Below are positions 12,706 to 61,767 of a stretch of 64,000 nucleotides of DNA, piece after piece. Within the stretch, counting starts at the first letter, position 1. Every line of letters begins with the position of its first letter. Location of the stretch: contig JAUJNJ010000022.1 of assembly GCA_030448225.1 (NCBI GenBank), positions 3,799-67,798 on the forward strand, in the 5' to 3' direction. The notes below the pieces were generated by a model. The model ran no database searches. It saw only the letters and a list, made by a program, of their open reading frames with translations, and was not told the DNA's origin. Made by a program: the position numbers and the translations under genes. This DNA comes from Phycisphaerae bacterium. GTDB taxonomy: Bacteria > Planctomycetota > Phycisphaerae > Tepidisphaerales > Tepidisphaeraceae.

Positions 12706-12817
12706 CGAACCACGCAGTCACGGAGGCGCGCGGAGACCGACGGAGGAAAAGGCAAGTGGGGGTGAAAGACGGTCGCATCGCCTCGTGGCCCCTCCGTGTC
12801 ACCGTAATTGTGTGGTC
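12706..12817. repeat. Imperfect palindrome (CACGGAGG words)
   Basis: A left arm with CGAACCACGCAGTCACGGAGG (in pieces: CGAACCACGC, GTCACGGAGG) at 12706-12726 faces a right arm with CCCTCCGTGTCACCG...GTGTGGTCG near 12788-12817. It sits in the 405-bp divergent gap (12537-12941) between cstA and the DUF4349 gene. Nothing else is recognised there. Confidence 0.55.
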
Positions 12818-12941
12818 GACTTTCTTTGTTTCGAAGGCACTCGGGCTTCGTCCCGATCCCCCGCCACCCCTTTAGCCGCAACCCCGAAGGGGTCGCTTTC
12901 CGTGGATCGCAGAAACACCTCACAGGTGGAGACCCTCGACG

Positions 12942-14155
12942 ATGCGAAACGCCCTCCGATCCCTGCTCATCCTCGTCGTCCCGCTCACCGGGCTCGCCTG
13001 TAGCACCGGATCACGGATGGACCCGAACGAGCTCGCGGGCGGCGGCCGATCCGCGCGGACGGCAGCGCCGGCGCCGCGGTTGCGCGGGAACGGTCACCCG
13101 CCGCCAGCGCCGCCGCCCCGCCGGCTCCCGAGGCCTCGTCGCGATCCCCGAATCCGCCCCCGCGCACCGCCAGCGCCACCCGACCCGCCGACGCCCGTCA
13201 GGTCATCTACTGCTGCGCGTTCCGCCTCGTCGTCGCCGACGTCGCCGGCACGCTCCGGTCGCTCCTGGAGACGGCCGCCCGGCTCGGCGGGCACATGCAG
13301 TCGGTGGCGGGCGGGTCGATCACGTTCCGCGTCCCCGCCGCCCGGTGCGACGAGCCCGTCGGCGTCGTCGCGCGCGGCGGCGAGGAGGTCGACCGCCAGC
13401 TCACGGCGCAGGACGTGACCGAGGAGCTGCGCGACTTGCACATCCGCCTCGACAACGCCGAGCGGCTGCGCCAGCGCCTGCTGGAAATCCTGAACAGGAC
13501 GACGAAGGTCGAGGACGCGCTGAAGGTCGAGGCCGAACTCGCGCGCGTGTCGGAGCAGATCGACGCGGCCAAGGGGCGCATCCGCCACTACGAGTCGCTC
13601 ATCGCGATGTCGACGATCCGCGTCGACCTCGACGCCGCCGTCGCGCAGAACGCCGGGCCCCACCCCGGCCCGCGCCTGCCGTTCGCGTGGGTCGACGACC
13701 TCGGCGAAGGCCTCGTCGCCGGCAAGGTGCGGCAGACCGTACGGAGGGTCGGCCTGTTCGGCCGCGGCCCGCGGGTCGCCGCGCCGGCCGGGTTCGTGAA
13801 GTACTTCGAGGACCGCCGTCACGCCGAGGCGATGGACGCCGGCGGCCTGCTCGCCCGCGCCGAGCGCCACGCGAACGTGGACCGCGCGCCGCTGTCGTTC
13901 TGGTCGCAACTCGTCCGCCGCGCGCTCGTCGAGGGCCGCGCGCTCGCGGTCGACGACGAGCAGACGACGAGCGGCGGCAACGTGTACCTCCTCCGCGGCC
14001 GCCGCGACGTCGGCGGCAAGCCGACCGGCTACCTGCTGTCGCTCGAGCGCAGCGACAAGGGCGTGATCGTCTTCGAGGCGTGGGGGCCGCTGGAACAGTT
14101 CGAGCAGAAGGAGGGCGTCCTGCGCGACGCGGCCCTGTCGATCGAGCCGGGTTAA
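12942..14155 (+). CDS. DUF4349-domain lipoprotein, one frameshift
   Basis: This is a predicted periplasmic lipoprotein. The ATG at 12942 begins MRNALRSLLILVVPLTGLACSTG, a signal peptide with lipobox LTGLAC. After a Pro/Ala-rich linker the frame slips (about 13100-13200) and the DUF4349 core follows: CCAFRLVVADV, ELRDLHIRLDNAERLRQRLLEI, then VEDALKVEAELARVSEQI and RIRHYESLIAMSTIRVDL, a coiled-coil followed by a beta segment. The C-terminal 120 residues carry a novel-looking region ending SLSIEPG-like at 14155. The family lacks a settled function. Its coiled-coil suggests a scaffold at the membrane. Confidence 0.8.
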
Positions 14156-17891: not shown

Positions 17892-18471
17892 GGCCGGGAC
17901 GGCTCACGCTCGCCGCGGCGGCGCGTCGCTGTTGCTCTGGCGCGGCCGCGCTCGCCGCCGGGGCCGACTCGCACCGGCGCGCGCTGGTCGGGCGCGCGGG
18001 GCGTCGTGGTCGCTCTACGTGCGATCGAGTACGGCCGGCTGTTCGTCCACGCCGGCGCGATCGACGCCGGCGACGCGCGCGCTGGCTCTCCGACACCTGG
18101 CCGCTCGCCCCCGGCTGGTCCGCGCCGGGCCGGGTCGGCTGGTGGGATCGCGGCGGGTTCGGCTACGCGATTGGCGGCACGCCCGGCGGCAACGCGATCC
18201 GCCAACTCGCGATCCCGTACTGGTCGCTCGCCCTGCTCGCCGCCCTGCCCCCGACTACCCTGGCCCTCCGCCGGCGTCGCCGCCAATCCGCCGCCGGCCT
18301 TGCCCCGCCTGCGGCTACGACCTCCGCGCCTCGCCAGGGCGCTGCCCGCGGGACGGCCCGCGTCGCCGACGCGGCTGCGGGCGGCGGCGGTGGCGGCGGC
18401 GCGGCGCTGTCGGCCGGGACGGATCTCGTTCGGACGGCGGGCGACGCGCCGCCACCGGGGAAAACAGATGA
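17888..18471 (+). CDS. Membrane protein with C-terminal zinc ribbon (copy B)
   Basis: A probable paralogue of the gene just upstream, split by several frameshifts. Joined pieces read VRPGRLTLAAAA (N-terminal helix), SLYVRSSTAGC-like and WPLAPGWSAPGRVGWWDRGGFGYAIGG (outer domain, in pieces), AIPYWSLALLAALPPTTLAL (second helix), then zinc ribbon CPACGYDLRAS-P-GRCP. A GTG start at 17888 overlaps the previous stop. The TGA ending at 18471 overlaps the next ATG (18468). The three genes are thus likely translated together. Confidence 0.5.
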
Positions 18472-33100: not shown

Positions 33101-33130
33101 TTGTCGGCGTCCGTACCCCGCGCGTATGCT
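33101..33130 (+). promoter_or_regulatory. Possible sigma-70-type promoter
   Basis: TTGTCG (33101-33106) and TATGCT (33125-33130) are separated by 18 bases, about 115 bases before the start of the large secreted protein. The match is partial and the region (32857-33245) holds no other recognisable feature, so this is only a candidate. Confidence 0.25.
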
Positions 33131-33245
33131 GCCGCTCCGGATTCCCACACGCATCGTAACGGCCATTTATTTGAGGCCGCCGCGACGGCCGTGCGTTACG
33201 CGCACGGGCCCGGGCCCGAGGCCACCAGGGAGGGTAGAACTCTTG

Positions 33246-35927
33246 ATGTTGATCGAACGCTTAGAAGGCCGCCGCCTGTTCGCCTCCGTCGCCGGCGCGC
33301 TCGTGCAGTGGCAGCCGATGACGGTCGACTTCGACGGCCCGCGGGCGAGCGAGTCGTCGTCGTCGCCCAACCCGTTCCTCGACTACCGCCTGCAGGTCAC
33401 GTTCCGCCACGCCGGCACGGGCCGGACGTACAACGTCCCCGGCTTCTTCGACGGCGACGGCCGCGGCGGCGGGACGGGCACCGTGTGGCGCGCCCGCTTC
33501 ACCCCCGACGCGCCGGGCGAGTGGTCGTACGCCGCCTCGTTCCGCAAGGGGGACGACGTCGCCGTCAGCACGAGCGCGACCGCCGGCACCGCCGCGAGCT
33601 TCAACGGCGAGGCCGGCACGTTCGCCGTCGCGCCCCGCGACGCCGCCGCGCCGGGGTTCATGAAGTGGGGCCGGCTCGAGTACGTCGGCGGGCACTATTA
33701 CAAGTTCCGCGACGGCTCCTACTGGACCAAGACCGGCACCGACAGCCCGGAGAACTTCCTCGGCTACGAGGGCTTCGACGGCACGCCCGACGCCACCCAC
33801 GACTACGCGCCCCACGTCCGCGACTGGGACCCCGGCGACCCGGACTGGAACGACGGCGACGGCAAGGGCATCGTCGGCGCGATCAACTACCTCTCCAGCC
33901 GCGGCGTCAACAGCCTGTACATGGTGATGATGAACGTCGGCGGCGACGGCGGCGACACCTACCCGTTCCTCCCCGTCGACGAACCCGGCGGCTCCGAGCG
34001 CAACGACAACACCCACTACGACCTGTCGAAACTCCGCCAGTGGAACACCGTGTTCGAGCACGCGCAGGAGTCCGGGCTGCTCCTGCACATGGTGCTGACC
34101 GAGACCGAGGAGGCGAACAAGCGCGAGCTCGACGACGCGTCGCTCGGCGACGAGCGCAAGCTCTACTACCGCGAGCTCGTGGCGCGCTTCGGCCACCACA
34201 ACGCGATCCAGTGGAACATCGCCGAGGAGTTCGACCACAAGCTCGACCTCGGCGCCGACAAGGTGAAGGACTTCGCCGAGTACCTGCAGGCCGTCGACCC
34301 GTACGACCACCCGATCACCGTCATGCCGCGGAACGACCCGACCGGGAAGTTCGACCCGTTCCTCGGCGACGACCGCTTCAGCGCCACCGCGTTCCAGCTC
34401 GACGAGGGGAGCGGCACCGGCGGGCACGGCAACACGATCGAGAAGTGGCGGCGCCGCACCGCCGACGCCGGCCGCCCGCTCCCGATCTTCAGCGACGAGC
34501 CGCGGCTGACGACCGAGGACAACCAGTCGGCGCAGCGCAAGGAACTGCTCTGGCCCACGCTCCTCTCGGGTGGCGGGATCGAGTTCATCACCGCCAAGTA
34601 CGAGGACGACCTCACGTTCCAGGACTTCCGCCCGTTCGACGACCTGTGGCGCTGGGGCGGCATCGCCCGCACTTTTCTGGAGGACAACCTGCCGTTCTGG
34701 GAGATGGAGCCGGACGACGATCTGCTGTCCGGCGAGACCGAGTCGGAGATGGGCTGGGGCCAGGTGATGGCGAAGGAGGGCGAGGTCTACGCCGTCTACT
34801 TCCCCGACGCCAGCGACACCGGCACGCTCGACCTGGGCGACGCCACCGGTGACCTGAGCCTCCGCTGGTTCGACCCGCGCGCCGGCGCGTTCGTCGGCGA
34901 GGCCGAGACGATCGAAGGGGGCGACGAGGTCGACCTGCCCGCCCCGCCGTCGTCGCGCTCGCAGGACTGGGTGGCGCTGATCGAGGGCGGCCCGGTCGCG
35001 CCGCCGAACGAGGCGCCGCGCGCGGACGCCGGCCCGGACCTGTCGGTCACGCTGCCGGCGGCCGCCACGCTCGACGGCACCGTGACCGACGCCGACGGCC
35101 CGCCCGCCGGCGGCGAGGCGGCGGTCCGGTGGACGACGGTCAGCGGCCCCGGCGACGTCGCGTTCGACGACGCCGCGTCGATCGACACGTCCGCCACGTT
35201 CGCCGAGCCCGGCACCTACGTGCTGCGCCTGACGGCCGACGACGGCACGCAGTCCGACTCGAGCAACGTCACCGTCACCGTCGCCCCGCCGGTGGTCGCC
35301 ACGCCCACGCCGACCCCGACGCCGACCCCGACCCCGACGCCGACGCCGACGCCCACGCCCACGCCCACGCCCACGCCCACGCCGACGCCGACGCCGCCAC
35401 CGACGCCGACGCCGACGCCGCCGACGCCGACCCCGAGTCCTACGCCGACGCCCACACCGACGCCGAGCCCGACGCCCACGCCCACCGAGCCGCCGGCGCA
35501 GGAGTTCTCCGCGCTGCCCGTGAAGCAGGGCCGGCGCGACGCGTCGGAGGTGGTCGCCGACGGCGCGGCCGACGGCGGGTCGTTCGTCCGCCTCAGTGGG
35601 CCGAAGCCGAAGGGCCAGGTCACCTACGCCCTGCGCGGCCTCGACCCCGGCACGTACAGCCTGAAGGTTCGCGTCCAGAAGGACGTCGGCGGCGGCATGC
35701 TCCAGATCTTCTCGCCGCAGGGCCGCAAGGCGATGGCGAAGCGGGGCGCGGTCTCGCTCGCGTCGGCGGCGGGGCCGGAGTTCGTCGACGTCGACCTCGG
35801 CACGTTCGAGGTCACCGGCAGCAAGAAGCGCGACCGCGCCCTGCGCCTGCGGATCGTCGGCGACCAAGCCGCCGGCGATGGCTTCACCCTCGGCCTCGAC
35901 TCGCTGAGCCTCACGCGGCTGACCTAG
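33246..35927 (+). CDS. Large secreted DUF5060/glycosidase-like surface protein
   Basis: A predicted exported protein of 893 residues. The ATG at 33246 is preferred over 33126 because it yields [17 protein letters not shown], the LExRxLF N-terminal motif of planctomycete extracellular proteins, with GGAGGG upstream. Domains: a DUF5060-like beta-sandwich ([29 protein letters not shown]; about 15-120), a TIM-barrel-like glycosidase region ([16 protein letters not shown] about 320, with possible catalytic acids), a PKD/REJ-like domain ([22 protein letters not shown]), a (PT)n linker, and a C-terminal beta domain ([31 protein letters not shown], in pieces). The DUF5060 pairing suggests polysaccharide binding or breakdown at the cell surface. 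Confidence 0.88.
35292..35493. repeat. ACGCCGACC simple repeat encoding a (PT)n linker
   Basis: About 200 bp of tandem ACGCC/ACCCCG units encode roughly 30 Pro-Thr pairs in the secreted protein. It forms a stiff, extended linker between the PKD-like domain and the C-terminal domain and is a likely O-glycosylation target. Copy number may vary. Confidence 0.85.
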
Positions 35928-51454: not shown

Positions 51455-51974
51455 ACATATGGATCGTCTCCGGAAGAAGGTCGTGTTCGCGGTGCGGCTG
51501 TCTCGGACGCGGGGGAGCCGCTTGCAATCCTGACGTCGTCGGGCGAGGCACGGTCGCTGACGATCATACCCAAATGAGGCGACGCGCACCGTCGCCGTGC
51601 CGCCGGGGTCGCACTGCCGCGGTCGGTGCAGCGCGGCGTGTTCGCGGGCGGATGTCGAATGAAGGCGGTATCGCACGGTCTTTAGGACCCGGGTGGCCAT
51701 CGGCGAGGGTTCGGCCCGCTGACGCGGCGAGGCCGCAAGCCCCGCCACGCCGGTCAGGCGCGGCGAACAAACCAACTCGGGACGGACGGGAGCAGACCCG
51801 CCCAGTCGCCATCGCCGCCCCGGCCGCCCCGCGGTTGCCACCGTTCGATCCAAATTTTTCCGCTCCTGAAATAAAGCCGTCGTCGTTCCGACCACCCCAC
51901 CAGTGAGGGGCGTGCCCCGGCGTTCGGAACGATCCACCCGGCCTGATGAGGGCCCGGTCAGCAGGAGCTACGTT

Positions 51975-52834
51975 ATGATCTACAAAGCCATCAAGGTCGG
52001 TCTCCTCGGCACCGCGGCGGCGGCCGTGGCCGGGGCTGGTGTTCGGCAGCGATCTGGGGAGCTACGTGAGAAAGCTCGACGCCTTGCGTCACGTCCGCCA
52101 TGAAAGACAACGTGCCGATCGAGTTCGAGCTGCGCGCCCCGCGACCTGCTCGACGACATCCTGCCCGAGATGCAGGCGAGCATCCGCGCGATCGCCGAGC
52201 AGGAGGTCGAGTTGGCCGGGCTCAAGGCCGAGATCGCCGACGGCGAGCGGGCAGCAGCCGAGCAAGAAGGGCAAGGTGGCGAAGGTGCCGTGCCTCTCCA
52301 CCCCCGGCAGTTCTTATAGCATCGGGCAGGTCATCTACAGCCGCGACGAGCTGACCGACGACCTCGCCCGCCGCTTCGAGCGGACGAAGGAGGCCGAGAT
52401 GGCGGCGCATCCGGCGAAGCGCCCGGCTGCTGGCCAACCGCGAGAAGGCGGCAAGCGTCGCTGCAAATGTTCGACCCACCCGCGAGCAGCGCGGCGTGCT
52501 GGAGGACCAGATCGCCGCCCTGGAGAACCAGCACAAGCTCGTGCAGATGGCGTCGGTCGACAGCGGCGTGCAGGTCGATCACAGCAAGCTCGCCCAGACC
52601 GAGCGGCTCATCTCGGACATCAAGCAGCTCGACGTCGCCGAGCGCGTCACGGCCCACAAGGCGAAGTTCGTCGACGCGATCCCGATGGAAGCCGCCGTGG
52701 ACGAGAAGGAACTGACCGAGGTCGACGCCTACCTCGCCCCCGAGCCGGCCGCCCTGCCGAAAGTGGTGGACGCCGACGGCGAGTCCAAGGCGAAGGAGAA
52801 GGCCGACGAGGTGACGCAGGCCGACCGGCCCTGA
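51975..52834 (+). CDS. Membrane-anchored coiled-coil protein, frame-disrupted
   Basis: First gene of the signalling operon. The ATG at 51975 has AGGAG eight bases upstream. A single N-terminal helix (IYKAIKVGLLGTAAAAVAGG) is followed by a long coiled coil: VPIEFELRRARDLLDDILPEMQASIRAIAEQEVEL (in pieces), SYSIGQVIYSRDELTDDLARRFERTKEAEMA, LEDQIAALENQHKLVQMASVDSG, AQTERLISDIKQLDVAERV. The C-terminus is acidic. The layout resembles uncharacterised planctomycete membrane proteins with PspA-like coiled coils. Three to five slips interrupt the N-terminal half. It probably scaffolds the downstream sensor at the membrane. Confidence 0.7.
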
Positions 52835-53030
52835 CCGGGAACGGGTGGGCTCGGCACGGGCACCGTGCCCGGCCGGGCGGCGGGGCCGCTTAGAATGGCC
52901 GCGGCGCCAATGGACGCGAGCCTTGCCCTGCCGCCTGGGCGGCGGCAACTCGTCCTCCCCCGCCGCCCCACCGTCGCCTTGCGATATACTGCGTCTTCCG
53001 TCCGAACGTCTACGAGCGGAGCGAACGGCC

Positions 53031-54011
53031 GTGCTGATCCTCAGGATTCGACAGCCGAGTGTGCGGCGGCCGACGGGCGGCTCGACGGGCGTTCGGGCTG
53101 GCCGACCGGCACGACGTGCGGAGCCACCGCCGCGGCCAGCGGCTCGTGGGGCAGGTCGTGCGGGCGGCCGTGGCACGGGCGGGGCGGCACCTCGACGACC
53201 ATCGCCCCGCCGACGCCGCCGCCGACGCCGACAAGGCCCGCCGCCTCGGCGGCGATGCGAGGTGGCGGCGCTGCGGACGCGGGCCGCCGAGGCTGCTCGC
53301 CCGCCACCGCGCTGAGCGCGCGGCGCTTCCTCGTGGCCGCCGCCCGCGAACAGGTGGAGCGCGACGACCTGTCGGGCGGCGGCCGCCTGCTCGCGACGAC
53401 GCCGCCGCCGCGGCGGCCGGGCAGGAGAGCGGCGGGCGTGATCCTCCGCGACGTGGACGTGCGGCGGCGGGACCTGGCCGGCCGCCGTCGCCGGCGCCCA
53501 GGCAGCGGCTGGCTGCGACGACTTCGGGCGGCCGCCCGCCAGCTCGCCCGCGCGCCCGGCCGACGCCGCGGCCTTCGCCGCCTTCGCCCGTCGCCGCCCG
53601 CGTCGCCACGGCCGCGCGGCAGCGTCCGCCTCGACGCTGCGACGGCGACCTCCGCCTCGCCGGCGCGATGCTCGACCGGCTCGTGACGATCGACGGGCAC
53701 GGCCTGGAGACGCAGCACCTCCGACAGGCGATGGCGCAGTGCCGGCTCGCGTGGGACCACGTCGACCGCTGCCAGACCCGACAGGCCGAGGAGGTCGTCC
53801 GCCGCCTCGCGACGCTGCTGCCCGACGCCACGTGGCTGGGCGCGTCACCCGCCAACTCCGCCAGGCCGCGGAACTGACCGACGAGCTGCGCCGGCCCGCT
53901 CGGCCTGCGCGGTCGACGGCGGCGCCGATGGGCCGGCGCCGACGACCGGCCCCGCAGCATCAGGGCGTTCGTCCGGAGCTTGCGGGGTTGACGCCCCCGC
54001 CGCTCCCGTGA
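53031..54011 (+). CDS. Repeat-rich cytoplasmic protein, frame-disrupted
   Basis: A GTG at 53031 opens VLILRIRQ, then AECAAADGRLDEAFGLADR in joined frames. Ala/Arg/Leu-rich helices follow (GQRLVGQVVRA, RHLDDHRPADAAADADKARRLGG), spaced like TPR or similar helical repeats. The C-terminal part is clearer: LRLAGAMLDRLVTIDGHGLETQHLRQAM, CRLAWDHVDRCQTRQAEEVVRRLATLLPDATWLG (in pieces), and RQLRQAAELTDELR. About six slips occur. Its last stop (TGA 54009-54011) overlaps a GTG start of the FHA-like gene. Probably a scaffold for the kinase system. Confidence 0.5.
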
Positions 54012-54667
54012 GCGGCGAGCGATTGCCGGGGAAGTTCCTGCTGCAGGTCGACGGCGGCAGCTACGTGGTGCTGACGCAGCCGGTGGTGACGATCGGCCCG
54101 GCCGGCGCGCGTCGCGCCGACGTGGGGCTGATGACCGACGCCGGCGCGTCGGCGGCGCGATGAGCGGGTCGAGGAGGACTACTTCCTCCGCCCGGCCAGC
54201 CCCGCGACCGCCAACGGGCGGCCGTCGGCGGGCCGGCTTCTCGACGGCGGCGACGAGCTCGCGCTTGTCGCCGCGGCGCTGCCGGCTCACGTTCCGCCTG
54301 CCAGCGCGCCAGCACGTCGGCCGTCCTCGACCCTGACCGCGCGCGATACCCGCGGGCCGACGTGCGCCGGCTGATCCTGCTCGACCGCGAGCTCGTGATC
54401 GGCCCCGGCGGCGCGTGCGCGTCGACGACCTGGTGGAGAAGATCGTGCTGGTGCTCCGCGACGGCCGGCTGTTCGTCCAGACGGCGGCGATCCTCGTCGC
54501 CGGCCGCGACGCCGCCCCGCGGTCGGGCGTCCCGCTCGGCGCGCACGTGAAGGCGGGCGGTATCGTTCGTGGTGACGCGAACGAACGCGCGGGACGGACG
54601 TGCGACCGGCCCCGCCGCCGAGGCGGCTGGGGCGACGCGGGTCGTCGTGCGGCCCCTTCGAACGTGA
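54008..54667 (+). CDS. Protein with two FHA-like domains, frame-disrupted
   Basis: FHA domains bind phosphothreonine, often on kinase partners. A GTG at 54008 overlaps the previous stop. Joined frames read KFLLQVDGGGSYVVLTQPVVTIGPAG, IERVEEDYFLRPA, VNGRPV-GRLLDGGDELAL, then LTFRLPS: a full FHA-like order. A second similar unit follows: LILLDRELVIGPGGG, VRVDDLVEKIVLVLRDGRLFVQT, VPLGAHVKAGGIVLVV. It ends with TGA at 54665-54667, 116 bp before the kinase. About four slips. Confidence 0.55.
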
Positions 54668-54783
54668 GTGGGAAGGTTGCTGGCGGCGGTGCTGGGGTCG
54701 GGATCGCTACACGGTTCGCCGCGTCGGCGCGAGCGACGCGGGACAAGTTCGGCACGCGAAACGCTTCGGGAGGTAGGTCGCCC

Positions 54784-57700
54784 ATGTGGACATTCCAGTA
54801 CAAGCACGGGGACAAGCCGCTGGCCGGCTTCACGATTGGGCGGGCCGCCGGCCGCGGCGGGTTCGGCGAGGTGTACTACGCGCTCAGCGACGGCGGCCGC
54901 GAGGTGGCTGAAGGCCGTCACCGGCACGAGCAGATCGAGCTGCGGCATCAGCCAGTGCATGAACCTGAAGAACCCGCACCTCGTCAGCATCTTCGACGTG
55001 CGGCACAACGACCAGGGCCGCCCGTTCGTCGTAATGGAGTTCGTCGCCGGCCCGAGCCTGCGCCGACTCCTCGACGAGTCGCCGGGCGGGCTGGGCGCAG
55101 AAGTCGGCGTTCTTCCTCCGCGAGATCGGCAAGGGCACGTTTCTACGACTGCGGCATCGTGCACCGCGACCTCAAGCCGGGGAACATCTTCTACGAGAAC
55201 GGCTACGTGAAGATCGGCGACTACGGGCTGAGCAAGGCGATGGCGACACCAGCACTCGGGGCAGACGATCACCGTCGGCACCGTCCACTACATGGCCCCG
55301 GAGATCGGCGGCGGCCGCTACGACAAGAGCATCGACATCTACGCGCTGGAGCGCGGTGCTGTTCGAGCTGCTCACCGGCCAGCCGCCGTTCCTCGGCGCA
55401 ACGCCCGGCGAGATCCTGATGAAGCACGCCTCGTCGAGCCGGACTGTCCGGCGTCGACGAGCCGTTCGCGCCGTGATCCGCAAGGCGATGGCGAAGGACC
55501 CGGCCGACCGCTACCAGTCGGTGCAGGAGATGTCGAGGCGGTGTTCGGCGCCCGAGCACATCCAGCGGAGCGTCTCGTGCTTCAGCCCCGACGGCCTGAG
55601 CATGATCGCCGAGCGCGTCGCGCGCGACGTCGCCGTCGGCGGCGGCAGCGACGCCCCCGCCGATCCCGCCGCGGGCCGGGGGGCCGCGGCGGGATCGGCA
55701 GGCGAAGACGTGGCCGACGGCGACCGGATCGGCCGCGTTCGACCGCGTCGGCGACCGCATCGGCGCGTCCGGCGAGCGGATGGCCGAACTCGCGCGCGCT
55801 GCCGCAGGGCGCTGCCGGCAGGCGCCCTGGGCGAGACGACTCGTCCGGCCAGGCCAGGCGACGCGCAGGTGCGACCGTTGTCCAAACGCCAGCGCGCGTG
55901 CTGGCGCTTGATGATGCTGCTGGTGTTGTCGGCGGCGACGGCGATCCTGAGCCCCACCGGCGGGCCCGACGGGTCGATCGTCGCGTTCTGGGGCCGCCCT
56001 GCTCTGCACGAGCGCGCGCCTTGGGCACCGTGCTGGCCGGCCACCGCATCCTGCCCCAGATGAGCAGCGACAGCCGCATCCTCCGCCGCATCGCATCGGG
56101 CGGCACGGCCGGCGCGGCTCCTGCTCGTGGGCCTGCCCGTGCTCGGCGGGGCCGACGCCGCCGAGGAGGCGGCGCTGACGGCGCTTGGGCCTGCTGATCG
56201 CCCTGCTGCTCGTCCCCGCCGCCGGACCTGTCGCCCGGCCGCCGCGGCGCGTCGGCTTCGGCGCCCGTGGTCGCCGCCGCGCGCTGGGGTTCGCGGCCTG
56301 GATTTTCACGCAGGGGACTGGGCTCCTGATCGCGATCGTCGCCGGCGCACCTGCTGGCGCGGTGCTCTCGCCGTGGGACCCGGTCGCGGCGCGCGACTCG
56401 GGCTCGCCGCCGACGGTTCCGGCGGCGGCCTGGACGCGGGCGTGGGGCGGGCCGCGGCGGCACGCGGTTCATCCGGCCGACGCGCTGACGCTCACCGCGT
56501 CGGCCGCCGCGTCGCTCGGCACGTGCGCAGGCGGCACGCCGCCCGCGAACAGGCGGTCGCCCTGGGCGCAAGACGCCGGCGACGTCGCGGCGCGCAACGT
56601 GCCGCCGGGCGACGCACCGCGTCACCGGCCGGTCCCGGTGCTCGTGCGCAGGATGTGGGTCGCCGCCGCGGTCCTCCTGATCCCGGTCGGGGTCGTGATG
56701 CTCGTCTACGTCGGCGGGCATCGCGTGGGCGCCGAGGAGTTCTGATCCTCGGCGGGCCTGGCACCGCGCTGCGCTGGCGGCAGCGCTGGTGAAGATGAAG
56801 ATGTTGCAGTCGACGTACCGCTCCCTCTGGGGCCTACGCCGGGCGGTACCTGTTCGCGTGGATCTGCCTCGAGGTGGTGCTGATGGCCGCCTTCGCGCTC
56901 GGCACCCGCCTCGGCCTCGAGGACACGATCATCGCGATCTTCGTGATGATCCTCGGCGTGCTGCTGATCCCGGTGGTGCTGTTCGTGGGGTTCGCGCGCC
57001 CAGCCCGCCGGCGTTGTCGATGCCCCGCCCGGGCCGGCGGCGCGCTGCTGCCGGAGCGGCGCGCCCGGTGCCGAGTAATGCCGTGCCGGGCGTGCACGAG
57101 ACGCGCGGCGGGCGCGTCCCGACGCGAGCGGCGTTCGCGGGCCGCGTGGCACGACGCGCGCTGGCCTGGCGTTCAGGGGCCGCCGCTGTACGTGCGGCTG
57201 TTCGGGCTGATCCGCGACCTGTTCGTCGGCACGTCGCTGGCGGCGCTGCTGGCCGTCGCCGCCCGGGGCCGCCGCGTTCCTCACGCTCGACATCCCGGGC
57301 ATGCTCGCCGCCGGCATCCCCGACCCGGACCTGCCGCGCCACAGATGACGCGCGACTTCGGCTTCTCCCGCTGGCCGCAGTTCATGCGCGGCATCGCCGG
57401 CGTCGTCGCCTGGGGCGCGATGCTGACGGCCGCGGTCGTGCTGATCGTCTCCCGCCGCGGCACCTACGGGATGCACATCCTCCGCGGCGTGGCGGGCGTG
57501 GCGATGTTCGGGCTGGCAGCTGGTGTTCCTGACGCGGTCGACGAGTCGCAGCGAGTGGGCGCGCGCCCCAACGTGCTGCACATCGACCTGCCGAACCTCG
57601 TCCTCCCCGGCTTCCGGGACGTCGCTCGACCAGGCCGTGGAGAGGGACGTGGAGATCGCAGGGCGAATTGTACGCTATCCGCCGTCAGGGCGACGGCGAC

Positions 57701-57888
57701 CGCGTCGCGGCGGCGGTGGAGCGATACCTGGGCGGCGCCCAACGGCGGCTTGATCGTGGCCGCCAGCGGGCCGCGGTGCTGTCGCTCGTGCTGATCTGCT
57801 GGGCGCGCGACGGCGATCGCTTGCGCGGCAACGACCGCGCGGCCGCCGCCGCCGCCGCCACCGCGCCCGGCCCTTCAGCCGGCAATGA
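54784..57888 (+). CDS. Ser/Thr kinase with long multi-pass membrane region, frame-disrupted
   Basis: A Hanks-type kinase. The ATG at 54784 opens MWTFQYKHGDKPLAGFTIGRAAGRGGFGEVYYAL (in pieces) with the Gly loop. Key motifs follow in joined frames: the VALKAV lysine, VMEFVAGPSL, CGIVHRDLKPGNIFY, KIGDYGLSKAM (DYG instead of DFG), GTVHYMAPEI, SIDIYALGAVLFELLTGQPPF. The kinase ends near 55560. From about 55860 to 57660, hydrophobic helices recur (MLLVLSAATAILS, VVLMAAFALGTRLG, FVMILGVLLIPVVLFVGFA, FMRGIAGVVAWGAMLTAAVVLIVSRRG), ending near VLHIDLPNLVLPGFRDV and AIRRQGDGDRVAAAVERYLGG. One fused protein of about 1030 codons is assumed, though two genes are possible. Around twelve slips occur. Confidence 0.7.
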
Positions 57889-57898
57889 GGAACACTCG

Positions 57899-59004
57899 AT
57901 GAAACACCTGCTGAGCGGCATCTTCCTCTGCGGCGTCGCCTGCTGCCTCGCCCCCGTCACTCCCGCGGCCGCCACAGAAGGCGCGCCGGCGAGACGACGG
58001 CCGGGCGCGTGACGACGACGATGGTCGCCGACGATCGCGCCGCCGAGGCCGACCTGTTCGTGCCGGAAGTGTACCCGTCGCGGGCGGAGGCGGCGCGGGC
58101 GCTCGGCGGGCGGTGGGCCCGGGCCGCCTCGGCGTCACCCGAAGAAGGCGCGGCGGTGACGGTGCGGATCCGTTGCGACTCGCCCGACCTCTTCCGCGCG
58201 TTCAGCGAGGGACTGGTGCTGGCGAACCCGAATGCGCGTCCCGTGCACGCCGCGACTGCCGACCGGGAGGAGAAGCCGCGGCCGGGCGAAGTGCGGGTGT
58301 CGCTCGCGTCGGCTCCGTCGCGGAACTTTGTCGCGGGCGGCGGCGAACGGGCCGGGTTCCCGCGCGACGCCGGCGTCCTCACGCTGACGGCGGACGCCGG
58401 GGATGGCGGCGGCGACGACGCGCCGAGCTCGCCACTGTCGGCGCGGTTCGTCGAGAAGCCGTGGCTGTCGGACTTCGCCGGCTTCGTGGCCGGTCGGCCC
58501 GGCGGGCGGTGGGTCGTCGGGCGCACGCACCCGCTCCGCCCCGCCGCCACCGCCGCCGACGCGGCGCGCGACGCCCGCGCGTCGGCGGCGGAGGAGATCT
58601 TCCGCCTCGTACAGGACCGCGTGCCCGCGCAGGTCGGCCGCGACGGCCGCCGCCTCCGCGGCGCGGTCGAGGCGGTGCTCGTCGGCGGCGACCGGCTCGT
58701 CGTCGATCGCTTCCCGCAGACGTTCGAGCGCGGCTACGGCACGCTCTACCGCGAGGCGGTGCTGATCGACGCCTCGGACGCGAAGCTCGCCCCGCTCGTC
58801 GACGGGATCGTTCGGTCGGCGCGGGCGCAGCGGGAGGCGCGGCACGGCACGATCTTTTCGGCTGCCGCCGTCCTGCTCGTGACCTACGCGCTCTATTGCT
58901 TCGCCAACGCGTTCACCCGCGGGTACTTTACGTGGTCGCTGCGGACGGCGGCGGCCGTCGTGGCCGCGGGCGCGGTCACGATCCTCGCGGCGACGGCGGC
59001 GTAG
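57899..59004 (+). CDS. Exported or anchored protein of the signalling operon
   Basis: The ATG at 57899 (GAGGA seven bases upstream) opens a signal peptide, MKHLLSGIFLCGVACCLAPVTPAAAT. One slip (about 57980) leads to an intact frame: DLFVPEVYPSRAEAARALGG, VRIRCDSPDLFRAFSEGLVLANPNA, FVEKPWLSDFAGFVAGR, AEEIFRLVQDRVPAQVG, and FERGYGTLYREAVLIDAS. Two C-terminal helices (IFSAAAVLLVTYALYCFANAF, LRTAAAVVAAGAVTILAATA) anchor it. It is encoded 10 bases after the kinase stop. No family name is known. It is a good candidate sensor or signal-receiving partner. Confidence 0.75.
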
Positions 59005-59021
59005 TTCGCGGCGCACATGCC

Positions 59022-59059
59022 GCGGGGCCCGCGTGGAGGGCGGGGCACGCGGGCCCCGC
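59022..59059 (+). promoter_or_regulatory. Strong hairpin upstream of the sigma-factor gene
   Basis: A perfect 14-bp stem (59022-59035 with 59046-59059, GCGGGGCCCGCGTG) with a 10-nt loop lies between the stop at 59004 and the sigma ATG at 59088, followed by GCACCTTTCCTTTGG. It could be a partial terminator (attenuator) or an mRNA-stabilising stem that sets sigma-factor expression separately from the upstream genes. Confidence 0.65.
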
Positions 59060-59087
59060 AGCACCTTTCCTTTGGCGCCGAACTCGA

Positions 59088-59999
59088 ATGGCCGAACTCT
59101 CCGAGGGCGACCGGTACCTGCTCCGCCAGATCCGCGCCGGCGACGGCGACGGGTGGTCGGCGCTCGTGTCGCGCTACCAGGGCCGCCTGCTCGCGTTCGC
59201 CCGCGGGCGCCTGCGCCAGCCCGCCGACGCCGAGGACGTCGTGCAGGACGCGTTCGTCGACTTCCTCAAGGGGCTGGCGGCCTTCCGCGAAGACGCGAGC
59301 GTCGAGACGTACCTGTTCACCATCCTGCGGCGCAAGCTCATCGACGCCTTCCGCGGCAAGCGACTGCGCCTCTGCTCCCTCCAGGACGTGCTCGACTCCC
59401 GCGGCGGCGGCGGCGCGGGCGACGGACCCGCGATCCCGCGCCTCGCGGGCGACGACCGCACGCCGAGTTGGTACGCCGGCCGCGCCGAGCAGGCGACGCT
59501 CGATAAGGCCGCCCTCGCGGCGGCGCTGCGGGCGCTGATCGACCGGCTGAAGGTCGCGGGCAACCTCCGCGACCTGCGCGTGATCGAGATGCTGTTCTAC
59601 GGCCAGGTCCGCAACAAGGACGCGGCCCGGATCGCCGGCATCGACGAGAAGCACGTCGCCCTCATCAAGCACCGCGCGCTCAACGAGGTGCGCGACCACG
59701 TCGCCCGGTCGGCCGGCGCGGGCAGCGCCGCCGCAACGTTCACCGTGTACGGCGATTCGATGGTGACCGAGGCGTGGGAGGATCAGCGGCTGACGTGCCC
59801 GAAGCGCAGCACGATCGGCCGCCACCTGCTGCGGACGCTCGAGCCGCCGTGGCAGGACCTCGTCGACTTCCACCTCAACAGCCTCGGCTGCCGCTTCTGC
59901 CGGGCGAACCTCGACGACCTGCAAAAGAAGAGCGACGACGACGCGTCGGTCGTGCGCGACCGCATCCTTCATTCCACGATCGGGTTCTTCAAGCGGTGA
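59088..59999 (+). CDS. ECF-like sigma factor with C-terminal Cys/His module
   Basis: An intact 303-residue sigma-70-type factor. The start is the ATG at 59088 (MAELSEGDRYLLRQI). Region 2 spans about 20-90 (SRYQGRLLAFARGRLRQPADAEDVVQDAF, in pieces; FTILRRKLID), and region 4 about 140-210 (RVIEMLFYGQVRNKDAARIAG, EKHVALIKHRALNEV helix-turn-helix). The linker has a poly-Gly run. Beyond a normal ECF factor, residues 228-285 hold C237, H262, C268 and C271 (CPKRSTIGRHLLRTLEPPW; FHLNSLGCRFCRANL), like a zinc-binding anti-sigma (HxxxCxxC) module fused in cis. Position at the end of the kinase operon suggests it is the transcriptional output. Confidence 0.93.
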   Translation: MAELSEGDRYLLRQIRAGDGDGWSALVSRYQGRLLAFARGRLRQPADAEDVVQDAFVDFLKGLAAFREDASVETYLFTILRRKLIDAFRGKRLRLCSLQDVLDSRGGGGAGDGPAIPRLAGDDRTPSWYAGRAEQATLDKAALAAALRALIDRLKVAGNLRDLRVIEMLFYGQVRNKDAARIAGIDEKHVALIKHRALNEVRDHVARSAGAGSAAATFTVYGDSMVTEAWEDQRLTCPKRSTIGRHLLRTLEPPWQDLVDFHLNSLGCRFCRANLDDLQKKSDDDASVVRDRILHSTIGFFKR

Positions 60000-60363: not shown

Positions 60364-61410
60364 CTACGGCTTCGCCTTCCGCAGCGGCCGCGGCGCGACG
60401 CCCTCGCGGGTGATGACGATCGGCTTGATCGTGCCGTCGGGGTTGAACTCCATCTTGTCGATGCACGTCACGCGCTCGTCGCGGCCGGTGCGGTCGAGCG
60501 GGCGGCGGTGGTAGACGGCGTAGTACGCGTCGTCGTCGGCGACGTGGATGACCGAGTGGTGCCCCGCGCCGGTCGCGACGGCCGGGTCCTGCTTCAGCAC
60601 GACGCCGAGGCGCCGGAACGGGCCGGCCGGCGAGTCGGCGATCGCGTAGGCGACGGAGTAGTTCGGCCCGCCCCAGCCCCCCTCGGACCACATGAAGTAG
60701 AGCCGCCCGTCGCGGCGGAACATGAACGGCCCCTCGACGTACCCGTCGGGCGTGATCTCCTTGAACGTCGTGTCGTCGTCGTGGGGGAGCAGCCCGGTGA
60801 AGTCGTCGTTGAGGCGCACGAGGTTACAGTGCCGCCACCCGCCGTAGACCATGTAGAGCCGGCCATCGACGTCCTTGAAGACGAACTGGTCGATCGGCTG
60901 GGCGCCGTTGTGGAACTTGTCGATGAGCGGCTTGCCGAGGTGGTCCTTGAACGGGCCCTCCGGACGATCGGCGACCGCGACGCCGATGCCGCCGACCTCC
61001 TGGTCGTTCTGGATGTCGTTGGCGCCGAAGAACAGGTAGTACCGCCCGCCCTTCTCGATGACCGACGGCGCCCACATCGCCCGGCGGGCCCACTTGATCG
61101 CGGTCGTGTCGACGATGCGCGGGTGCTTCGTCCAGGTCTTGAGGTCGGGCGAGGAGAACGCGTCGAGGAACACCTGCTCCTCGTAGCGGGCGGAGAACGT
61201 GGGGTAGATCCAGTAGCGGTCCCCGAAGATGACGCCCTCCGGGTCGGCGTACCAGCCGGGCAACACGGGGTTGCCCGCGCGCCCGTCGGCGCGCTCGCCG
61301 CCCGCGGCGCCCGCCCCGGTGGCGGCGAAGGCGGCGGCGACGGCAACGCCCGTCGCGAGGGTGGCCAAGAGGACGACGGCGGAACCTGGCGGGACGGCGG
61401 GAAGTCGCAT
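60364..61410 (-). CDS. Exported GH43-type glycosidase
   Basis: A five-bladed propeller glycosidase, for example an arabinofuranosidase or xylosidase, 348 residues. The ATG at 61410 has AAGGAG six bases upstream and opens a signal segment (MRLPAVPPGSAVVLLATLATG). Catalytic features: D in LPGWYADPEGVIFGDRYWIYP, D in DQFVFKDVDGRLYMVYGG, and the likely acid E in DGYVEGPFMFRRDGRLYFMWSEGG. The domain ends PDGTIKPIVITREGVAPRPL. It is intact and probably acts on plant or algal polysaccharide in the periplasm. Confidence 0.93.
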   Translation of the reverse strand: MRLPAVPPGSAVVLLATLATGVAVAAAFAATGAGAAGGERADGRAGNPVLPGWYADPEGVIFGDRYWIYPTFSARYEEQVFLDAFSSPDLKTWTKHPRIVDTTAIKWARRAMWAPSVIEKGGRYYLFFGANDIQNDQEVGGIGVAVADRPEGPFKDHLGKPLIDKFHNGAQPIDQFVFKDVDGRLYMVYGGWRHCNLVRLNDDFTGLLPHDDDTTFKEITPDGYVEGPFMFRRDGRLYFMWSEGGWGGPNYSVAYAIADSPAGPFRRLGVVLKQDPAVATGAGHHSVIHVADDDAYYAVYHRRPLDRTGRDERVTCIDKMEFNPDGTIKPIVITREGVAPRPLRKAKP

Positions 61411-61640
61411 CGAAATCTCCTTGCGGGCACGCGCGACCCCGCCACCCCCGATCGGCCGGCGGCCGGATTCGTGCCTTCGCGATGAGCAACAGTATCGCAC
61501 GGAGAGGGTCGGTGCCCGTGACGGTCGTGTCAAACGCCGCAGTGATGAGATTCCGGGGCCAAAGCGCCGCGCGCCGCCGACGGTAGTCAACGGAGCGCGG
61601 GATGAAGTGCCTTTTGGACCCGCCCTCCCCGATGCCCGCT

Positions 61641-61671
61641 CCGCCGCAGGCCCGAAGGGCCCGCTGCCCGC
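61641..61671. repeat. GGCCC dispersed element, diverged copy 4
   Basis: CCGCCGCAGGCCCGAAGGGC followed by CCGCTGCCCGC is a diverged inverted form of the element at 29386 and 41897. The rest of the gap 61411-61767 shows no gene. Confidence 0.5.
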
Positions 61672-61767
61672 TGTTTCGGAGGGTGCCACCGGAGGAGTTG
61701 CAACACAGGACGCCCGAACTTGGCAACGAGGCAACTCGGGCCCGCGCTGTCGACCCGAGGCCCGCCA

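Follow-up and report, generated by a model that had tools for sequence, protein, structure and literature searches.

We describe here a locus at positions 51975 to 59999 of a 64,000-nucleotide stretch of DNA from a Phycisphaerae bacterium (assembly GCA_030448225.1, contig JAUJNJ010000022.1, positions 3,799 to 67,798; G+C content, 71.5%), referred to below as the window. The conserved gene order in relatives suggests that this locus is one copy of a signalling operon of the Planctomycetota, comprising genes for a membrane-anchored coiled-coil protein (gene A), a scaffold protein with TPR-like repeats and two FHA-like domains (gene B), a membrane-embedded Ser/Thr kinase (gene C), an envelope protein (gene D), and an extracytoplasmic function (ECF) sigma factor (gene E). 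Together, the five genes probably form a single, previously undescribed system that carries an envelope signal to gene expression. We found no description of this gene set in the open-access literature, searched by title or the start of the abstract, and it may be described elsewhere. The new elements are a conserved promoter, a C-terminal C-H-C-C extension on the sigma factor, and FHA folds without the phosphothreonine-binding arginine, which make the operon a variant of kinase-linked ECF signalling.

A first-pass annotation of the window, made from the DNA letters and predicted open reading frames (ORFs), had proposed a six-gene kinase/FHA/sigma factor operon whose genes should stay together in related genomes and whose kinase and FHA folds should be real. 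Both expectations agree with what we found. The comparison started from a contig scan that gave a Phycisphaerales relative, L001, which with L002 is the only one among the 80 loci listed to match over nearly the full length. Forty neighbourhoods from 73 listed sigma factor matches, together with L001, gave 41 loci, which were scanned with profiles of the five families over six-frame translations (a crude gene caller missed some core genes that these profiles found). All five genes were present on the same strand in the order A-B-C-D-E in 21 of the 41 loci. Eight more had the TPR/FHA, kinase, and sigma factor genes, with no coil gene and no clear envelope gene, and in these, as in the 21 complete loci, a Hanks-type kinase gene lies upstream of the sigma factor gene. 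Two loci were partial (one at a contig end and one with genes A and B elsewhere), four had another kinase gene directly before the sigma factor gene, and six had a sigma factor gene without upstream partners; in one of the six, L151, gene B lies on the other strand about 9 kb away. The flanks of the operon are unlike one another: of 139 flanking ORFs with 150 or more amino acids found around the complete loci, only 6 recurred in three or more of these 21, as judged with a crude ORF caller that itself recovered the core families in 16 to 21 of these loci. Because flanking ORFs seldom recur, the five genes are kept together more than chance would allow.

The sigma factor and gene B also travel together through genomes. 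Among the 248 genomes of the class to which L001 belongs, the sigma factor (threshold, E 1e-30) was found in 69 and gene B (threshold, E 1e-15) in 70; 66 genomes had both, 3 had the sigma factor alone, and 4 had gene B alone (Fisher P value of 3e-51, uncorrected for shared ancestry). The two genes lie within 8 kb of each other in the expected order in 45 of the 66 genomes and not in the other 21. At least five of these 21 (G019, G073, G162, G173, and G206) may reflect contig breaks, and in two (G079 and G235) the genes are on one contig in opposite orientations, about 10 and 21 kb apart. In most of the others the genes really are apart, so they are co-inherited without being adjacent, and because genes that lie apart are still co-inherited, a functional tie between them is indicated. 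Furthermore, 20 additional gene B loci were fetched, 18 from the 21 genomes and 2 from genomes without a sigma factor match, and in 18 of these 20 a kinase gene comes immediately after gene B. At L164, L165, and L138, two or three consecutive kinase genes follow the TPR/FHA gene.

A survey of 392 genomes of the phylum gave a gene B match in 51, often to the FHA half alone, and a sigma factor match (E 1e-20) in 85. From the FHA matches we chose by hand 20 loci in 19 genomes, and in these the kinase gene lies downstream in all 20, the coil gene upstream in 19, a sigma factor gene follows in 14, and the envelope gene is recognised by its profile in 9. Inspected by eye, five of the loci without an envelope gene match have, in the place between the kinase and sigma factor genes, an ORF whose ends are hydrophobic. 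The plan across the phylum is thus coil, tandem FHA, kinase, envelope protein, and sigma factor, with the TPR half present in some lineages only. At four loci (L140, L141, L142, and L152), a differently built kinase of about 1,100 amino acids precedes a second sigma factor, which belongs to the same family and has the extension; in the three that were examined (L140, L142, and L152), this kinase bears an FGE-sulfatase (sulfatase-modifying-factor) domain. That a second sigma factor stands behind a differently built kinase supports the tie between kinase and sigma factor.

A two-block motif, TGAAATAT-N14-CGACTACC, lies upstream of the coil gene in 35 nonredundant regions (34 relatives and the window), a set that leaves out 4 near-duplicates and 5 upstream regions for which no start was assigned. 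When the motif was fitted de novo with spacings of 12 to 18 allowed, the spacing was exactly 14 in 31 of the 35 regions. The total score was 434, against 292 to 313 in 12 refitted shuffles, which reached only 6 to 9 regions at any one spacing (150 starts were used for the real set and 60 per shuffle). With a matrix trained without the window, the site in front of the window operon scored 15.8, making it the best site on either strand of the 64 kb at a spacing of 14 (the next scored 7.9), and in 18 of the 21 complete loci no plus-strand site anywhere in the fetched DNA scored higher than the operon promoter, the exceptions being L118, L124, and L134. Among loci without a coil gene, 6 of 16 (L155 to L170) have a site scoring at least 9.8 where gene B starts, and none of the 8 others does. 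One further locus, L172 (genome G165), has a strong operon promoter (16.4) and no sigma factor match at E 1e-30; that genome may be incomplete. A genome-wide search with the correct spacing of 14 gave 24 matches, against 14 in a reversed control, and a pattern off by one (spacing, 15) gave 18 against 13. Six of the 24 matches are the operon itself, and of the other 18, one is not spanned by a longer open frame. This lone site (L274; G112:C101) is intergenic, 59 nt before a 276-amino-acid lipoprotein-like gene, and is a single case.

The sigma factor gene of the window is intact, and its product, for which 799 homologues were matched among the candidates scored, passes the cutoff of the sigma70-ECF model TIGR02937 over residues 23 to 203 (E 1.7e-17); the separate Pfam sigma-4 model gave no match to this protein. 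The first-pass annotation had treated the sigma factor as a plain output, and this is not supported, since the protein carries an extension and the operon has a shared upstream promoter. About 80 residues lie beyond the sigma-4 region, and within them C237, H262, C268, and C271 are invariant in 19 of 19 rows of alignment A1 (picked from 120 listed homologues of the 799) and in 33 of 33 locus sequences. The ligands are spaced H-x5-C-x2-C and do not match the zf-HC2/ZAS zinc signature, H-x3-C-x2-C, given in an excerpt of PMC7406223. In an hhalign comparison of 24 extension rows with 14 zf-HC2 rows from six genomes, the two families aligned at a probability of 78.1 (E 1.8e-5) with all four ligands matched, against 0.1 and 0.2% for the controls; the single-protein Pfam match to zf-HC2 (E 0.008) was below the cutoff and came from one of two proteins. 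The profile comparison thus suggests a moderate relationship to zf-HC2 zinc fingers, and because the 14 zf-HC2 rows had been kept from 20 by a motif and position filter and the spacing is unusual, we use only the label zf-HC2-like. The module may well bind zinc. A hydrophobic helix was found in 0 of 33 sigma factor proteins.

Elsewhere in the phylum, the same module can stand on its own. A separate protein that matches the extension alone occurs in at least 16 of the 392 genomes, and among the 20 chosen loci, 5 have a shorter sigma factor gene followed, at a distance of no more than about 1 kb, by a gene for the extension, and in 5 the extension is fused to the sigma factor. This pattern of fused and split forms suggests contact between sigma factor and module, and nothing beyond contact. 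One stand-alone protein of this zinc type gave no match up to E 10 in a PDB sequence search. At L185, an AIM24-like gene (12736 to 13419; TIGR00266, E 7.9e-9, 35.4 bits against a cutoff of 96.6) lies between the sigma factor gene and the gene for the separate zinc-type protein; by eye, similar ORFs occupy the same position at L192, L194, and L195, the TIGR00266 model having been run on L185 alone.

The kinase is a genuine Ser/Thr kinase, as first annotated: its motifs are recognisable in the window, the catalytic motifs VALK, HRDLKP, DYG, and APE are intact in 28 of 28 kinases, and the kinase of the relative L113 matches Pkinase at E 2.2e-45. The kinases of 28 relatives have 6 to 15 predicted hydrophobic helices, with a TM2-like motif in 12 of the 28 (TM2 passes its cutoff in L118 and was not found in L113). 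Compared with PknB-type PASTA kinases through the Stk1/PknB equivalog model, the L113 protein scores 190.7 bits against a cutoff of 450, the kinase domain alone matching.

Gene B encodes the likely scaffold. The structure model of a relative's protein, P0121, has a pLDDT (predicted local distance difference test) score of 91.3; fold comparison identifies the FHA fold in it, and its helical repeats match TPR proteins (Foldseek, VIA), with Pfam TPR below its cutoff. The double FHA-like protein of the first-pass annotation therefore stands as to its fold and falls as a separate gene, being part of one TPR/FHA protein. FHA domains that bind phosphothreonine carry an arginine after the motif IG (the GR motif). 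This arginine is present in 0 of 49 sequences in either domain, and a proline takes its place in 42 of 49 in each; in two Phycisphaerae-type proteins tested, the Pfam FHA model gave no match. For Phycisphaerae-type proteins we accordingly reject the FHA pair as a phosphothreonine reader, and the annotation's proposal of a relay by FHA binding of phosphothreonine is not supported. Kinship with the FHA domains of type VII or type III secretion systems (T7SS and T3SS) was likewise rejected, the likeness being one of fold only. The FHA protein at L185 has IG-Q, yet keeps SRRHA.

The remaining two proteins are those of genes A and D. In 17 of 18 relatives the coil protein has a single hydrophobic helix at its N terminus, in line with its description as membrane anchored. 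We rejected the idea that it is PspA, as Pfam PspA matched none of 10 members or L185. Its C terminus (residues 209 to 257 of the L113 protein; alignment A4) is similar to acyl carrier proteins, although the serine used for attachment seems, by eye, to be missing, and the resemblance may be due to chance: TIGR00517 matched 4 of 10 members, below its cutoff (best E value, 1.6e-5), and most of 38 PDB sequences at E 0.014 to 0.73 are acyl carrier proteins. The first-pass description of gene D as encoding a signal-peptide protein with two C-terminal helices was confirmed, both hydrophobic helices being present. A model of its product (pLDDT, 80.7) shows a weak likeness to LpoB and Lpp20; fold searches gave no family beyond these two in the matches listed, an absence that is not evidence.

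All parts of the operon lie on the plus strand of the window, as first proposed, from the ATG of the coiled-coil gene to the stop codon of the sigma factor gene (Table 1). There are five genes and not six, since the annotated helical-repeat and double-FHA genes correspond to one protein of about 530 amino acids in relatives. Because that protein is a single open frame in relatives (25 locus proteins of 450 to 660 amino acids and 120 listed proteins of 445 to 570) and the protein of one relative, P0140, aligns across 53641 to 54409 in three frames, the GTGA at 54008, previously taken for a gene junction, lies inside gene B. The other annotated junction, between the kinase gene end at 57888 and the envelope gene start at 57899, is plausible: this spacing, measured with crude starts, is −53 to +26 nt in 12 of 13 loci and 464 nt in one.

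Table 1. Features of the operon and its promoter in the window
Feature	Position	Strand	Basis and remarks
Bipartite promoter TGAAATAA-N14-CGACCACC	51867..51896	+	78 nt before the first start codon; matrix score 15.8
Gene A, membrane-anchored coiled-coil protein, ~285 aa in relatives	51975..52834	+	Frame-shifted here; tblastn with L119 relative over 52070-52792 in three frames; alignment A4
Gene B, TPR-like helical repeats and two FHA-like domains, ~530 aa in relatives	53031..54667	+	Frame-shifted; tblastn with P0140; start set by likeness to relatives
Tandem FHA-like region of gene B (limits approximate)	53987..54580	+	tblastn segments 53987-54139, 54180-54257, 54308-54409; relative P0121 has the FHA fold
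Gene C, Hanks-type Ser/Thr kinase with multi-pass membrane region	54784..57888	+	Frame-shifted; tblastn with L113 kinase over 54793-56993; end uncertain
Gene D, signal peptide, extracytoplasmic domain, two C-terminal hydrophobic helices	57899..59004	+	Frame-shifted once, after the signal peptide
Gene E, ECF-type sigma factor, 303 aa	59088..59999	+	Intact; Sigma70_r2 E 2.1e-17
Putative zf-HC2-like C-H-C-C extension of sigma factor, residues 222-303 (C237, H262, C268, C271)	59751..59996	+	Ligand conservation; hhalign

Elsewhere in the window, a glycosyl hydrolase family 43 gene on the minus strand (60364 to 61734; E 4.5e-53) faces the operon, positions 33126 to 35927 hold a gene whose product has DUF5060 and PKD domains, and the sole tRNA gene found is a 94-nt tRNA-His(GTG) at 17969 to 18062.

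How might these parts work together? An envelope-to-transcription system, as the first-pass annotation had it, is still the best reading, and of that earlier scheme the FHA-phosphothreonine relay and the plain sigma factor output are not supported. The explanation that we favour, and which we hold to be somewhat likelier right than wrong, is an envelope-sensing kinase system with a self-limited sigma factor and positive feedback. The kinase, the envelope-facing protein, and the membrane-anchored coil would sense the state of the cell envelope, and gene B would tether the kinase and its partners through its TPR-like repeats and two FHA-fold domains that do not read phosphothreonine in the usual way. 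The output would be the ECF sigma factor, restrained by its own C-H-C-C zinc-finger-like module of anti-sigma type (a separate protein in other planctomycetes) and released either when the kinase phosphorylates the linker, the module, or a partner or through a metal or redox change. The free sigma factor would then transcribe the operon from its upstream promoter, closing a positive feedback loop. In excerpts of PMC8103513, ECF factors are described as usually being freed from an anti-sigma factor and often activating their own operons.

The main alternative is a direct switch, in which the kinase phosphorylates the sigma factor, as in the pairs PknT/EcfP and PknS/EcfK, and the zinc-finger-like extension has a structural role only. 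Some ECF factors have lost a negative charge, and a neighbouring kinase switches them by putting it back (PMC8103513 and PMC13147305, both in excerpt); here too the kinase and sigma factor genes stand together, as they also do in the second, differently built pairs. Furthermore, a linker serine, S127, is invariant (19 of 19, 33 of 33, and 14 of 14 sequences in alignment A1, the loci, and a wider set) and none of 10 other ECF factors has a serine there, one having threonine, and EcfK is phosphorylated in that linker (PMC13147305, in excerpt). However, few sequences entered this comparison (of the 30 ECF loci fetched, 10 were usable, the other 20 having no long frame or no profile match or being the operon sigma factor itself) and its alignment is uncertain. 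The rule set out for EcfP, that DAED is lost (PMC8103513, in excerpt), also fails, as the sigma-2.2 motif stays acidic: it is DAED, EAED, or DADD in 19 of 19 rows (DAEDVVQ in the window), and it ends in ED in all 33 locus sequences and all 14 sequences of the wider set, in which the first two residues are often S or T. Since the acidic motif is kept, the sigma factor is not built inactive in the manner of EcfP, and we reject EcfP-type activation. With the negative charge already in place, the kinase would have to act otherwise, on the module, S127, or a partner, and we regard a direct switch as unlikely overall.

A different objection is that the promoter serves another sigma factor, the operon being a stress-induced envelope maintenance unit and the sigma factor gene a passenger or one acting on distant genes. 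Strong promoters do stand before the coil or TPR/FHA gene in some genomes where the sigma factor lies apart (gene B loci such as L167 and L170, and genome G076, in which genes A and B have a promoter scoring 17.7 and are separated from C-D-E), the three best sites of each of the six sigma-only loci include none close to the sigma factor start that exceeds the control level, and genome searches found no other recurrent promoter target or regulon. The presence of gene B in 66 of the 69 sigma-bearing genomes of the class is hard to reconcile with a passenger, although shared ancestry contributes to it, and we judge this account improbable. Less probable still is that the window copy is a decaying pseudogene cluster. 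Four of the five genes do have frame shifts, and tblastn with relatives finds the coil, TPR/FHA, and kinase genes each scattered over several reading frames. However, a simple frame-tracking model counts 77 same-strand frame switches in the window; the two operon bins of 4 kb have 10 and 6 and two other bins have 11 and 13. Because the switches are spread over 13 of the 16 bins and are not special to the operon, they look like sequence errors of an error-rich contig and not decay; the sigma factor gene, for its part, is intact, and in the ranking of the 35 promoters that of the window comes sixth.

The kinase-and-module explanation can be carried further, tentatively, into a phylum-wide two-lock switch, in which the sigma factor would need both release from the zinc module (on board or split) and a dedicated kinase held by the TPR/pseudo-FHA protein and would drive its own operon. 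We find this possible, if on balance doubtful; if true, planctomycetes would have a counterpart of the RseA/RpoE response to envelope stress that does without the membrane anti-sigma factor usually cut by proteases. The envelopes of planctomycetes are unusual and their kinases and ECF factors numerous, and to our knowledge few links between them have been worked out. Conserved through the phylum and equipped with an intact kinase, an anti-sigma-like module in fused or separate form, and a sharp promoter, this gene set opens the way to direct tests.

Several known systems resemble parts of the operon. In Rhodopirellula baltica, RB1789, a 243-amino-acid FHA-domain protein, is among the genes induced by heat, cold, and salt alike, and RB1790, called an ECF sigma factor, is induced by salt only (PMC2754498, in excerpt). 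The length of RB1789 fits the stand-alone FHA proteins of the chosen phylum loci, whereas in the loci seen here a kinase gene, not a sigma factor gene, follows the FHA gene. Degenerate FHA scaffolds such as EssC (T7SS) and YscD/PscD (T3SS) function without a phosphothreonine site and have the FHA fold in common with gene B, but the FHA domains of gene B sit on a soluble TPR-like protein beside a kinase, and there are no secretion genes among the five families. Mycobacterial PknB-FhaA/FhaB and PpkA-Fha of type VI secretion also place Ser/Thr kinase genes beside FHA genes; their FHA domains bind phosphothreonine, and we know of no sigma factor gene in either set.

On the sigma factor side, ECF48, ECF52, and ECF53 of Actinobacteria (for example, SCO4117) likewise have a zinc-finger-like module of anti-sigma type at the C terminus (PMC8999054, in excerpt), from which the operon sigma factor differs in having no hydrophobic helix, the H-x5-C-x2-C spacing, and a linked kinase. 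In layout there is a likeness to the ECF43 type (EcfP/PknT of Vibrio parahaemolyticus and EcfK/PknS of Xanthomonas citri), in which an ECF sigma factor gene also lies beside the gene for a transmembrane Hanks-type Ser/Thr kinase. The operon shares with that group the ECF sigma factor and the neighbouring kinase with an intact active site, but its sigma-2.2 motif stays acidic, lacking the ECF43 replacement of DAED by uncharged residues with Thr/Ser, and it has in addition the C-H-C-C extension, three more conserved genes, and a conserved promoter. According to excerpts of a 2022 review (PMC8999054), there are six kinase-linked ECF groups, of which those other than ECF43 may keep a DAED-like motif, are uncharacterised, and still need a mechanism. 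The operon sigma factor may belong to one of these groups, and working out its system would characterise a kinase-linked ECF factor that keeps its DAED motif.

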